From: Rheinheimera sp. A13L
GTDB lineage: Bacteria; Pseudomonadota; Gammaproteobacteria; Enterobacterales; Alteromonadaceae
Assembly (NCBI RefSeq): GCF_000217935.1
Contig: NZ_AFHI01000007.1
Location: 1-64,000, forward strand
Direction of reading: 5' to 3'
Length of the DNA stretch: 64,000 bases
A program made the position numbers and the translations under genes. Below are positions 31,011 to 34,975 of this stretch, one piece after another; position 1 is the first letter of the stretch, and each line of letters begins with the position of its first letter. The notes under the pieces were generated by a model, which saw only the letters and a program-made list of their open reading frames with translations, did not search any database and had not been told where the DNA came from.

Positions 31011-33281
31011 TCAGGCTAACAAAGCCACTCCACCTTTTAAGTTAAACACCAGCTCAAAGCCTGCCCTGTTAAGCACTTTGGCGGCTAATAAACTTCGATT
31101 TCCTGAACGACAAACCAATAATGTTGGCTGCTGTTCCATTTGATGATGATCGCTGTGCTGCTCTGCCACCTGCTGTACTAATGCCGACAAAGGCACTTCC
31201 TTACAGACTAAATCCGGCAAATACACGGACAAAGCGCCAGCGGCCTGCTCGTGAGGTTCACGTACATCCCAGATCTGTAAGTTTGGATACTGTTGTATCA
31301 AGGCAGCAATTTGATCTTTATCAATGACAGCTGTGGCGTCGGATGCACAGACTTCCACCACGCCACAAAAATGCCCTGATTGCTGGTGCAGCCAGTCGGT
31401 TTGACGCTGTAACTCGCTTAACCACAGTTCTGCTGTATCTTCAGTATTCAGCACCTGTTGCAACACTGGCTGCTCCTGCAACATCAGATCCCAGCGTGTG
31501 AAAAAGCGCTGGGCATAATCATGACTGGATAATAATAAGGTTTGAGGTTCAAGCTGCTGGCTCAAAGCGCGCAAACTCTGGCGAAACGCCTGGCTGTCAC
31601 CACCTGGTAAATCCAGCCGGCCTGTGCCACCCGGCAGAATAAAATCGCCAACCAAAGCAAATTTCTGCTGCTGTTTTTGTTCTGCAAATTGCCTTACCAG
31701 AATAGTCACGGCTTCAGGGCTATGACCAGGCGTTGCCACGGTTTCCAGCTGATATGCGCCCATCTTTATACGGGGTTCGGTCAAAGGCCAGCCGAGCGTA
31801 GTGGTATTTGCGTCACCCATCAGATCAGCTAATAAGGTCACCAGTTCAGGCCGGGCCGACGGATGATCTTTGTGCAAATGCGTATCCAGAATAGCCCGCA
31901 CTTTTAACTGATGGCCCTGCACCAAAAGCGCGATCCGGCTGGCCAGAGGCAATACAGCATCAATAATAATAACTTCAGAAGTTTCGGCCGACACCAGCAA
32001 ATAGCTGCATAAATCTTCATGTTTTAACTGCACTAAGCCTGCTAATGGCTGCAGCTCTGTACTGCTGGCGTCACTTAATACCAGACAACAGGAATTAACC
32101 ACCACCTTTAGTGCCAGAATAGCCTTGCAGGCTTGCTGACACTCCTCTGCTGTCATAGCCGGGCCAAAGGATAAACGAATAGCGCCCTGACTACGCCACA
32201 AGGGTAAACCCATTGCATTCAGCACAAAACTGGTCGGAATTTTAGAGCTGCAAGCCGAGCCAGAGCTAACACGAATACCAGCGGCATCAAACAAATCCAT
32301 AATGTCTTTGCTGGCAAAACCCGGCACAGAGAAGTTGATGGTGGTAGGGACTATATAAGGCCTGTCACTGTTCAGAACCAGATCAGGAAAGACCTGGCGC
32401 AGGGCGGACAGCAGTTGATCACGATAAAGCCACAGTTGCTGTTCTGGCTGAAAGACCGAACCTTCTTTTAATTTCAGTTGCTGAAATATCGCCTGCAAGG
32501 CTGCAATACCTGGTAAGTTTTCAGTACCTGAACGCAAACCACTCTCTTGCCCGCCGCCTGCTAATAATGGCTGATAAGGCGTACCTTTGCGTACATACAA
32601 AAACCCTATGCCTTTGGGAGCATAGAGTTTATGACCACTAAAGGGCGCGTAGTCTATGGTCATTTGTTCGAGCTGCAATGGCATTTTGCCAAGAGCCTGC
32701 ACACAGTCCACCATCCACAAAACGTCTGGGGCAACGGCACGGATGAGTTGCTGCAAAGCGGCAAGGTCCTGCTTTACACCTGTCTCGTTATTGGCAGCCA
32801 TAGTGCAAATAAGCAGGGTGTTTGGCAGTTGTGCACGAATAAAGTCAAAATCCAACAGGCCATGCTGATCGACCGGAATAGCTTTAATAGTCGCGCCCAG
32901 CTGCAACACATGGTTCCAGTGTTCAAGGCTCTGAGGCACAGCTTTGTGTTCAGTGGCCCCGTACAATAAGCTAAAAGTGGATCCTGTTTTTCCGGACATG
33001 CGGGCATGCAACAAAGCGGAGAAAATAGAACTCTGAATGCCTTCAGTGGCACCTGAGGTAAAAACGATGTCACCCGATCCTGCGCCAATCAGCTGACGAG
33101 CCAGTTGTCTGGTGCTTTCGAGCTCCACTTTGGCTTTAATACCTGTGCTGTGGCTGCTGCTGGGATTACCAAAACACTGCTGCATCGTATGCTGAACAGC
33201 TGCTGCAGCACAACTCAACACCGCTGTGGTGGCATTATTGTCCAGATAAATTTCTTGTGGCCGGATGACAGACTTTTGCAT
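31011..33281 (-). CDS. Triple fusion: cysteine desulfurase, persulfide-dioxygenase-like MBL domain, rhodanese
   Basis: This 756-residue protein joins three sulfur-chemistry domains. Residues 1-400 form a class V PLP cysteine desulfurase of the NifS/IscS type: PLP lysine Lys218 in SGHK and persulfide cysteine Cys344 in SSGSACSSK. Residues about 410-640 form a metallo-beta-lactamase fold with His468, His470, Asp472, His473 (THLHKDH), His520, Asp546 and His587, resembling ETHE1/persulfide dioxygenase or glyoxalase II. Residues about 660-756 form a rhodanese with Cys724 in CRSGNRS and WDVREPHE. The ATG at 33281 is chosen because the desulfurase begins there; the frame opens at 33386. A strong sigma70 promoter lies upstream. 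The cofactors and direction of sulfur flow are inference. Confidence 0.9.
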   Translation of the reverse strand: MQKSVIRPQEIYLDNNATTAVLSCAAAAVQHTMQQCFGNPSSSHSTGIKAKVELESTRQLARQLIGAGSGDIVFTSGATEGIQSSIFSALLHARMSGKTGSTFSLLYGATEHKAVPQSLEHWNHVLQLGATIKAIPVDQHGLLDFDFIRAQLPNTLLICTMAANNETGVKQDLAALQQLIRAVAPDVLWMVDCVQALGKMPLQLEQMTIDYAPFSGHKLYAPKGIGFLYVRKGTPYQPLLAGGGQESGLRSGTENLPGIAALQAIFQQLKLKEGSVFQPEQQLWLYRDQLLSALRQVFPDLVLNSDRPYIVPTTINFSVPGFASKDIMDLFDAAGIRVSSGSACSSKIPTSFVLNAMGLPLWRSQGAIRLSFGPAMTAEECQQACKAILALKVVVNSCCLVLSDASSTELQPLAGLVQLKHEDLCSYLLVSAETSEVIIIDAVLPLASRIALLVQGHQLKVRAILDTHLHKDHPSARPELVTLLADLMGDANTTTLGWPLTEPRIKMGAYQLETVATPGHSPEAVTILVRQFAEQKQQQKFALVGDFILPGGTGRLDLPGGDSQAFRQSLRALSQQLEPQTLLLSSHDYAQRFFTRWDLMLQEQPVLQQVLNTEDTAELWLSELQRQTDWLHQQSGHFCGVVEVCASDATAVIDKDQIAALIQQYPNLQIWDVREPHEQAAGALSVYLPDLVCKEVPLSALVQQVAEQHSDHHQMEQQPTLLVCRSGNRSLLAAKVLNRAGFELVFNLKGGVALLA

Positions 33282-33323
33282 GATTCGCCCCATATAACTA
33301 AAGGTTATATTATATATGGCAAC

Positions 33324-33352
33324 ATAATAACCAGCCGTTACAGCTGTGACAA
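33324..33352 (-). promoter_or_regulatory. Sigma70-type promoter of the triple-fusion gene
   Basis: On the minus strand TTGTCA (33347-33352) and TATTAT (33324-33329) are separated by exactly 17 bases. A very AT-rich stretch (TATATAATATAACC) follows before the start codon at 33281. That stretch could hold a repressor site, since GGTTAT and ATAACC flank it. Confidence 0.7.
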
Positions 33353-33642: not shown

Positions 33643-33852
33643 CACTCACATCGTCCTTGATGTTCGCCTCCGGCAGCTAAAGCTGTGCAAAACAGCTATC
33701 CTGCTGTTTTGTCACTCACATCGTCCTTGATGTTCGCCTCCGGCAGCTAAAGCTGTGCAAAACAGCTATCCTGCTGTTTTGTCACTCACATCGTCCATGA
33801 TGTTCGCCTTCGGCAGCTAAAGCTGTGCAAAACAGCTATCCTGCTGTTTTGT
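33643..33852. repeat. Three tandem 70-bp repeats
   Basis: Units start at 33643, 33713 and 33783 with an exact 70-bp period. Units 1 and 2 are identical, and unit 3 differs at two positions (cttgatg to catgatg, cctccgg to ccttcgg). Each unit holds a perfect hairpin AAAACAGC..GCTGTTTT and a smaller cagc..gctg hairpin. There are no spacers between units, so this is not CRISPR. The array abuts the left end of the insertion sequence. Confidence 0.92.
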
Positions 33853-33937
33853 GAACATTGGAGATAATTGGACTCCCCCAGCTCATAGAGCTGGGTTAAT
33901 ATTTTAGTTCTCACACAAAAATATTTTGGAGTCCAAC

Positions 33938-34975
33938 ATGCACAATATAATCGCAGGTGTTGATTTAGCAAAAGAAGAAATTCAGGTTTGTGTTTGTAAA
34001 CACAACAAGGTGCAGTCTAATCGGGCGCAGACACCGACACAATTTGCTTCTTGGTTAGCTTCATCAAAACCCATGACTATTGTATTTGAGGCATGCAGCA
34101 CATCAAATTATTGGAAACAAATCGCGCTAACACATGGGCATGATGCACGACTTATTTCAGCCAAACTTGTTGCCAGTGTGAGACAAAACCAAAAAACGGA
34201 TAAAAATGACGCCTTAGCCGTTGCTCAAGCTGCTCAACTCACTGATGTTTCATTTATTAACGGTAAATCAAAAGAGCAACAAGAACTCCAAACGTTAGCT
34301 CGCTTACGAGAACTTGCCGTTAAACATAAAGTGGCGATGCAAAATCAGATTAAATCTTTATTATTAGAATTTAATATCAGGGTGTCACCCAGCCAAGGCG
34401 GCTTAAGCCGTGTCGTTCAGGGAGTTCTGGAAGATGCTGAAAATGGCTTCTCCATGGTCTTTCGGGAAGCGTTAAATACTGGATGGCAGCAACTCCTACT
34501 CAGCATTGAAGCGATACACAAATATGATAGTTATTTAGAGAAAGCGGCAAATCAGCATGTGATTTGTAAAACTTTACAAGCATTGGAAGGCGTTGGCCCA
34601 CTGAATGCGATCAATCCCTATATTGCTCTCGGTTGTGGGGAAATGGGGCAATTTAAAAAAGGCCGGGATGCTTCTGCCTGCATTGGTTTAACCCCAGTTC
34701 AACATACTTCCGGTGGTAAAGTGAAACTCGGCTCTGTGGGTAAGTACGTTCAAAATAACACGATTAGAAGCTGCTTGGTGAGTGGCGCCATGTCAGCAGT
34801 TAACCATGCAACCCGACGTACGGCAAAAACAAAGAAAGACCTATGGATACAACAAATGGTCGAACGTAGGGGGAAGCGCTGCACTGCTGTTGCGTTGGCC
34901 AATAAAACAGTAAGAACTGCCTTTGCCATGCTAGCGAATGGAACAGAATATAAAGCAGAACTTTTGGCTGCTTAA
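33938..34975 (+). CDS. IS110-family transposase (DEDD recombinase)
   Basis: This 345-residue RNA-guided type recombinase has an N-terminal RuvC-like DEDD domain (GVDLAKEEI with Asp8, FEACSTSNYW, KTDKNDA) and a C-terminal domain with the helix-hairpin-like LQALEGVGPLNA and the ACIGLTPVQHTSGGK region, followed by the conserved Ser region of the family. The ATG at 33938 has GGAG upstream; a TTG four codons earlier opens the frame but is unlikely. The gene is full length with no frameshift, so the element may be active. Both flanking regions match no neighbouring gene. Confidence 0.93.
   Translation: MHNIIAGVDLAKEEIQVCVCKHNKVQSNRAQTPTQFASWLASSKPMTIVFEACSTSNYWKQIALTHGHDARLISAKLVASVRQNQKTDKNDALAVAQAAQLTDVSFINGKSKEQQELQTLARLRELAVKHKVAMQNQIKSLLLEFNIRVSPSQGGLSRVVQGVLEDAENGFSMVFREALNTGWQQLLLSIEAIHKYDSYLEKAANQHVICKTLQALEGVGPLNAINPYIALGCGEMGQFKKGRDASACIGLTPVQHTSGGKVKLGSVGKYVQNNTIRSCLVSGAMSAVNHATRRTAKTKKDLWIQQMVERRGKRCTAVALANKTVRTAFAMLANGTEYKAELLAA

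Follow-up and report, generated by a model that had tools for sequence, protein, structure and literature searches.

A predicted cysteine-sulfur oxidase uniting desulfurase, persulfide dioxygenase and rhodanese domains in one Rheinheimera protein, and decay of its dioxygenase domain in a second family

Fusions of cysteine desulfurase with rhodanese (CD–Rhd) and of persulfide dioxygenase with rhodanese (PDO–Rhd) are known separately. Here, we analysed a 64,000-nucleotide stretch of Rheinheimera sp. A13L (contig NZ_AFHI01000007.1, positions 1 to 64,000; hereafter, the window), in which one gene encodes all three domains in the order CD–PDO–Rhd, a variant of the known sulfur-relay fusions. With a probability of roughly 0.6, judged from sequence comparisons, this gene encodes a three-step cysteine-sulfur oxidase that would turn cysteine into alanine and sulfite within a single chain.

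Architecture, predicted chemistry and distribution of the fusion

The frame runs on the minus strand from an ATG at 33281 to a stop at 31011 and comprises 756 residues. An alternative upstream TTG start would give 791 amino acids; the ATG is preferred, because the TTG would place the start upstream of the promoter and palindrome (see below). Pfam finds Aminotran_5 (residues 11–382, 6.7e-61), Lactamase_B (residues 426–473, 1.8e-6, over the cut-off) and Rhodanese (residues 658–752, 5.1e-8) in this single frame, which bears out the original prediction that one polypeptide carries a desulfurase, a PDO-like and a rhodanese domain. The gene and its domains are the following.

31011..33281, minus strand: CD–PDO–Rhd fusion gene, 756 amino acids (open reading frame and Pfam; domain order shared with relatives).
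32088..33254, minus strand: NifS/IscS-like CD domain, residues about 10–398, with the pyridoxal phosphate (PLP) lysine K218 and the persulfide cysteine C344.
31359..32054, minus strand: domain read as type I PDO, of the metallo-β-lactamase (MBL) fold, residues about 410–641, with the iron triad H468, H520 and D546 (profiles, fold ranking and alignment); further residues are T467, H470, D472, H473, R555, D557, H587 and Y589, and C639 matches C247 of human ETHE1.
31023..31328, minus strand: rhodanese domain, residues about 652–753, with the CRSGNR loop, C724, D672 and R674 (Pfam and profiles).

The catalytic residues K218, C344, H468, H470, D472, H473, H520, D546, H587 and C724 all stand where they had been predicted. 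Conservation was assessed in 111 homologues, nearly all from the order of the window's genome: 131 of 138 loci tried gave a protein, and, together with the window protein, these 132 sequences were reduced to 111 by removing duplicates over the last 600 residues. Two of the seven missed loci were unusable (L032, a fragment, and L116, a non-homologue), and five are homologues outside the extraction motif (L050, L071, L138, L142 and L143), L050 and L071 being present in a separate alignment of 86 sequences. Fewer than 700 residues are present in three of the 111, namely in L060 and L021, which end with their contigs, and in L031.

The desulfurase part has the class V aminotransferase domain, PLP lysine and catalytic cysteine of NifS/IscS-type enzymes, and K218 and C344 are kept in 86/86 aligned homologues, which is the fair count, as the presence of C344 in 111/111 is true by construction (the extraction motif contains this cysteine). 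NifS, DndA and IscS are its top desulfurase models in NCBIfam, all three scoring under their equivalog cut-offs (for the NifS equivalog TIGR03402, 282 bits versus a curated 530.75); the domain is a relative of NifS, not NifS. The rhodanese part carries the CxxGxR active loop as CRSGNR, of which C724, R725, G727 and R729 are kept in 109/111 homologues, with gaps in the other two.

From this architecture, the intact sites, their conservation and the selection acting on them, we infer the following series of reactions. The CD domain would move the sulfur of L-cysteine onto C344 and release alanine; the sulfane sulfur would then pass to C724 of the rhodanese and onward, most probably to glutathione (GSH), which would become glutathione persulfide (GSSH); finally, the mononuclear-iron PDO would use O2 to oxidize the persulfide to sulfite and free the thiol. 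The net conversion would be that of cysteine and O2 to alanine and sulfite, and the sulfite would be exported or oxidized; in the window's genome, a TauE-type exporter gene adjoins one stand-alone PDO-like gene. By analogy, each step has precedent in other systems (here and below, statements on papers cited by PMC number refer to the available parts of their text). A CD-to-rhodanese relay has been shown for a Pseudorhodoferax enzyme (PMC8931425), and coupling of a sulfurtransferase to a PDO through GSSH for Blh (PMC5823870). GSH is the favoured carrier, because PaPDO uses GSSH, its use of cysteine persulfide being undetectable (PMC12856154).

The fusion is conserved but patchy, and is an accessory gene. 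Within the genus, 18 of the 21 other genomes carry it full length and three copies are cut by contig ends; a further 38 genomes, drawn from other genera within the family and order, comprise four with the full-length fusion, one (G031) whose form lacks a working PDO and 33 without a long match. A scan with one genome per species confirmed 590 loci, and the 80 top-scoring ones that were kept (a list biased toward full-length copies) comprise 79 loci reaching residue 751 or beyond and one cut by its contig; the same three-domain order, which the original prediction had proposed to look for, is thus found in Rheinheimera, Alkalimonas, Arsukibacterium, Alishewanella, Thalassotalea, Thalassomonas, Pseudoalteromonas, Shewanella, Colwellia, Paraglaciecola and Psychrobium. 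An assembly fusion of separate genes, one of the outcomes that would have undone that prediction, is rejected, because the same three-domain frame is matched end to end in independent genomes. Order-wide, 43/394 genomes from 13/114 genera match (E ≤ 1e-70), 40 of them end to end; G501 was read as complete, and G031 and G776 have a decayed PDO (not every one of these proteins was checked residue by residue). In an even sample of the class, queried with the relative L028, the only match among 369 is the window's own. An even sample of the phylum gave 12/398 matches at 1e-62, comprising nine end-to-end fusions, one long open frame with a decayed PDO (G1033) and two desulfurases only. The window protein also matches 3 of 72,556 plasmid records, all from Pseudoalteromonas, and a CD–Rhd query returned the same three; one copy bears only the annotation 'aminotransferase class V-fold PLP-dependent enzyme', and no feature is listed for the remaining two.

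Identity of the dioxygenase domain

For the MBL-fold domain, the label of a PDO rather than a hydrolase fits the profile, the fold ranking and the residue spacing, and these comparisons favour type I PDO over glyoxalase II. In each of three rankings, the top PDOs have scores far higher than those of glyoxalase II; because desulfurases crowded the results of the full-length fold search, residues 404–756 were folded and searched separately. The best profile match spanning both the PDO and the rhodanese domain is the PDO–Rhd fusion of the PpPDO/BpPRF type. The 2-His-1-Asp iron triad, mapped from the AcPDO paper, is present as H468, H520 and D546, the T-H-x-H-A-D-H motif as THLHKDH (K for A), and the C-terminal cysteine (C247 in ETHE1, C224 in AcPDO) as C639, which is kept in 109/111 homologues, the rest having gaps. 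Human ETHE1 and AcPDO are stand-alone enzymes, unlike the window protein, but share with it the triad, the essential C-terminal cysteine, the THxHxDH, GR-D and HDY motifs and an equal spacing from D546 to Y589. H468, H470, H520, D546 and H587 are all kept in the 111 homologues except in L031, L144 and the contig-cut L021 (in two of these columns, a D and an H of L031 are aligned by coincidence). All seven metal ligands that had been predicted are present as residues; the set as a whole, however, is that of the binuclear glyoxalase II, and a PDO iron would use only H468, H520 and D546.

That the domain is a glyoxalase II-like thioester hydrolase is highly improbable, and this identity was rejected as the less likely one: apart from the rankings, the GloB model TIGR03413 gives 53 bits, far under its curated 200.8, and the PDO-type C639 and H587-D588-Y589 are conserved. 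D472 and H473 occupy positions that hold second-metal ligands in glyoxalase II, and their drift among the homologues argues against a two-metal hydrolase.

Several observations nevertheless weigh against the three-step oxidase. Among the NCBIfam models, GloB scores the MBL domain higher than does Blh (NF040641, 37 bits versus a curated 625, PDO part only), both scores being far under the cut-off. D472 or H473 is lost in 36/111 homologues, and their AcPDO equivalents D61 and H62, which are second-sphere residues, are essential according to the AcPDO paper. R555 is kept in 94/111 and replaced by N in 14/111, and position 557 holds D in only 55/111 and N in 39; in AcPDO, R139A and D141A abolish activity (AcPDO paper). 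Since these four positions vary, some or even many members may have a weak or altered PDO activity, although the window protein itself has D472, H473, R555 and D557. Moreover, a conserved GSH-contact lysine, which in type I PDOs is represented by K212 of AcPDO and K216 of PpPDO (AcPDO paper), was not found near residues 620–638 of the 111 homologues, where the alignment is weak, so that GSSH would be a putative rather than an established immediate substrate of the PDO. The PDO part also evolves faster than the CD part, mean pairwise identity over 57 rows being 66% for CD, 40% for PDO and 46% for rhodanese, and dN/dS against five more distant relatives being 0.065–0.083 for CD and 0.21–0.28 for PDO (three computable pairs each, and none for rhodanese). 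Against seven close relatives, dN/dS is 0.025–0.058 for CD, 0.037–0.103 for PDO and 0.026–0.139 for rhodanese, values that are rough, as many dS exceed 1 and two of the seven rhodanese comparisons are saturated; they point to purifying selection on the PDO part within this close set.

Dioxygenase decay and the role of the oxidation step

In a second family (f213), which belongs to the same class as the window's genome and was reached through the phylum sample, 38/145 genomes match at 1e-70, and 37 of the 38 proteins were read (G1208 was left out). K218 and C344 are kept in 37/37 and the rhodanese motif in 36/37 (in L205, the rhodanese lies behind a run of N and is unreadable), whereas none of the 37 keeps H468, H520 and D546 together. 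In L171, H468 is the single triad residue missing. The PDO profile still recognizes remnants in 33/37 (E 8.2e-49 to 5.4e-6), many of these matches spanning only the first part of the profile; L191–L194 give no match and are plain CD–Rhd proteins of about 510–525 amino acids with 140–143 residues between the two cysteines. L031 and L144, from the window's own family, likewise have a dead PDO site and retained CD and rhodanese parts. These losses count against the three-step oxidase; because the PDO is dead or gone in f213 while CD and rhodanese persist, the latter two look like the core and the PDO like a separable end-step.

In a tree of CD domains, the 37 f213 proteins and L146, a protein with an intact PDO from the window's order, group together (SH-aLRT 99) in a clade nested among the intact sequences. 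This nesting depends on two branches with a support of only 87 and 89, and the outgroup consists of three long-branched sequences, so that the direction of decay rests mainly on the PDO remnants. Together, the sequences indicate that a PDO was present in the f213 lineage and was then lost, and they support the view that CD–Rhd enzymes arose by PDO decay from a triple fusion. By analogy, the Pseudorhodoferax CD–Rhd enzyme likely belongs to the clade of f213 and L146; L191–L194 share its build, with no PDO and a comparable spacing of cysteines (132 residues in Pseudorhodoferax; PMC8931425).

As a side observation on f213, each of the three loci inspected (L191, L193 and L168) has, next to the fusion, a gene for an ABC binding protein that we take to be of the branched-chain-amino-acid type. 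Separately, at L170 (genome G796), a desulfurase is fused in frame behind another protein, presumably molybdopterin oxidoreductase-like, in an open frame of 1143 amino acids, which makes a further unusual desulfurase fusion.

The prediction of a self-contained sulfur-disposal enzyme agrees with the evidence, as do the predicted domain identities and intact sites; for the redox-signalling role named beside it, no evidence either way was found. It may instead be that the working product is persulfide or H2S released by CD and rhodanese for protein persulfidation or sulfur supply, the PDO being a safety valve for excess persulfide. The retention pattern of f213 speaks for this, as does the ability of the Pseudorhodoferax CD–Rhd to oxidize roGFP2 from cysteine (PMC8931425). 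In the window's group, however, the iron triad persists, with only L031 and L144 of the 111 homologues having lost it (one further row being contig-cut), and the PDO appears to be under purifying selection among close relatives; because of both, PDO turnover is suggested to matter there, and we regard a mere safety valve as unlikely, if worth keeping in mind. Somewhat more doubtful is the composite reading of a single-chain cysteine-sulfur oxidase, ancestral to CD–Rhd enzymes through PDO decay, whose PDO is fed by the rhodanese or CD persulfide without a free thiol; the support given above applies to its ancestry half. That the PDO takes sulfur straight from the rhodanese or CD cysteine persulfide would accord with the failure to find a GSH-contact lysine and with the location of all sites in one chain, yet the window protein has R555, D557 and Y589, matching catalytic or GSH-site residues of AcPDO, and the substrate preference of PaPDO for GSSH over cysteine persulfide (PMC12856154) points the other way, making this route improbable. 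We retain the three-step oxidase with GSH as the probable carrier.

Regulation, neighbourhood and relation to known fusions

Two candidate regulatory elements lie upstream of the gene.

33324..33352, minus strand: candidate sigma-70 promoter TTGTCA-17-TATTAT (10/12 match; seen by eye upstream of close homologues).
33292..33310, minus strand: candidate operator, the 7-5-7 palindrome ATATAACCTTTAGTTATAT, between the -10 box and the start codon.

A strong promoter had been predicted, and a sigma-70-like match is indeed present; such matches, however, are about as frequent in shuffled sequence (four found, 3.0 expected), and the presence of the promoter in close relatives, judged by eye, is a better argument than the score. 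The gene is probably transcribed alone, and a candidate regulator perhaps acts at the palindrome. The window's genome holds one perfect palindrome site and one with a mismatch. Among 85 upstream regions, 50 hold a match of at least 12/14 positions and 35 do not, compared with ~0.7% of mononucleotide shuffles; since the window itself supplied the motif, related rows are counted repeatedly and the distance to the start varies, this count is support, not proof, for a candidate operator. A perfect copy in G037 lies inside a reading frame and may be due to chance. Comparison of the palindrome with BigR/HlyU operators gave no usable match from the available parts of two papers. Separately, several Shewanella loci (e.g. 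L074, L076, L083, L088 and L105) have a repeated TGATCTTGATCATT element upstream of the fusion, which looks to be of the CRP/FNR type; none was seen upstream in the window.

Neighbouring genes change across clades, and of the 30 largest neighbour clusters shown, none was seen to be a partner gene conserved from clade to clade. As neighbours, fadR, dsbB, chrR/rpoE and azoreductase genes occur in the Rheinheimera–Alishewanella–Arsukibacterium–Alkalimonas group only, and in the Rheinheimera group the fusion lies between fadR/dsbB and a convergent chrR–rpoE pair. The window differs from relatives, in which fadR is much closer to the fusion, by an IS110 gene and three tandem 70-bp repeats between the two; the repeats (100%, 100% and 97%; 33643–33852) directly precede the IS110 RNA-guided transposase gene (33926–34975). 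Elsewhere in this genome, L005:1108-3177 is a gene row of a stand-alone PDO-like protein, a TauE sulfite exporter and a rhodanese, and another PDO-like gene lies at L007; because of these, PDO chemistry and sulfite export appear at home in the genome, and sulfite probably leaves through the product of the L005 row.

In genome G031, the fusion (L031:6733-8544, 604 amino acids) has lost the PDO and kept the CD and rhodanese cysteines; it directly follows what we take to be nqrM and a row of Na+-NQR genes, a neighbourhood with a possible link to iron–sulfur (Fe-S) or iron maturation. A repeat-protein gene, presumably BNR/Ycf48-like, adjoins the fusion on different sides in two distant genomes (L027:6638-7696 and L031:5681-6676). 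A role of the fusion as a third desulfurase, serving the assembly of Fe-S clusters or cofactors and with its other domains regulatory, would suit the NifS/IscS-like CD domain and the putative nqrM neighbourhood of L031, but is very hard to reconcile with two further desulfurase-like genes in the window's genome, the absence of a match at 1e-70 in 351/394 order genomes and, going by the presumed gene names, the lack of a recognized Fe-S partner common across clades among the neighbour clusters shown.

Among known systems, the CD–Rhd of Pseudorhodoferax sp. Leaf274 (WP_056898193.1; 54 kDa, cysteines C334 and C466) is alike in having the CD in front and a single rhodanese behind, and its two-cysteine persulfide relay was shown in vitro, where, with GSH, the rhodanese cysteine increases the turnover of the CD about ninefold (kcat 8.2 versus 0.93 per second; PMC8931425). 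No PDO is reported for it there, whereas in the window protein a PDO lies between the two domains and the cysteines are 380 residues apart. The BpPRF/PpPDO fusions (PDB 5VE3–5VE5) likewise have a type I PDO followed by a rhodanese, but are without a CD and have the GSH-contact lysine not found here. Blh of Xylella and Agrobacterium (PMC5823870) and CstB of S. aureus couple a sulfurtransferase to a PDO in one chain; Blh differs in its DUF442 domain, its supply from sulfide or thiosulfate and the lack of a desulfurase. Cable bacteria have rhodanese and PDO-like domains in one chain, with metal motifs that vary between clades, but with the rhodanese in front and no desulfurase (PMC13047784). The triple fusion was not found among the papers listed from the open-access literature (titles and abstract starts), subscription journals being mostly uncovered and a description in print elsewhere possible. 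In their available parts, PMC8931425, PMC11763069, PMC12319549, PMC9774590, PMC10135228 and PMC13047784 name CD–Rhd, CD–TusA, PDO–Rhd or Rhd–PDO only, and neither 'fusion' nor 'dioxygenase' occurs in PMC8300815.

The window protein thus unites the source, the carrier and the sink of cysteine sulfur in one chain and would provide a direct route from cysteine to alanine and sulfite. Its relatives form a natural series, from an intact PDO through the loss of one iron ligand (L171) and a destroyed site to no PDO at all, which offers ready comparisons on the purpose of the oxidizing step and suggests an origin for the CD–Rhd enzymes.
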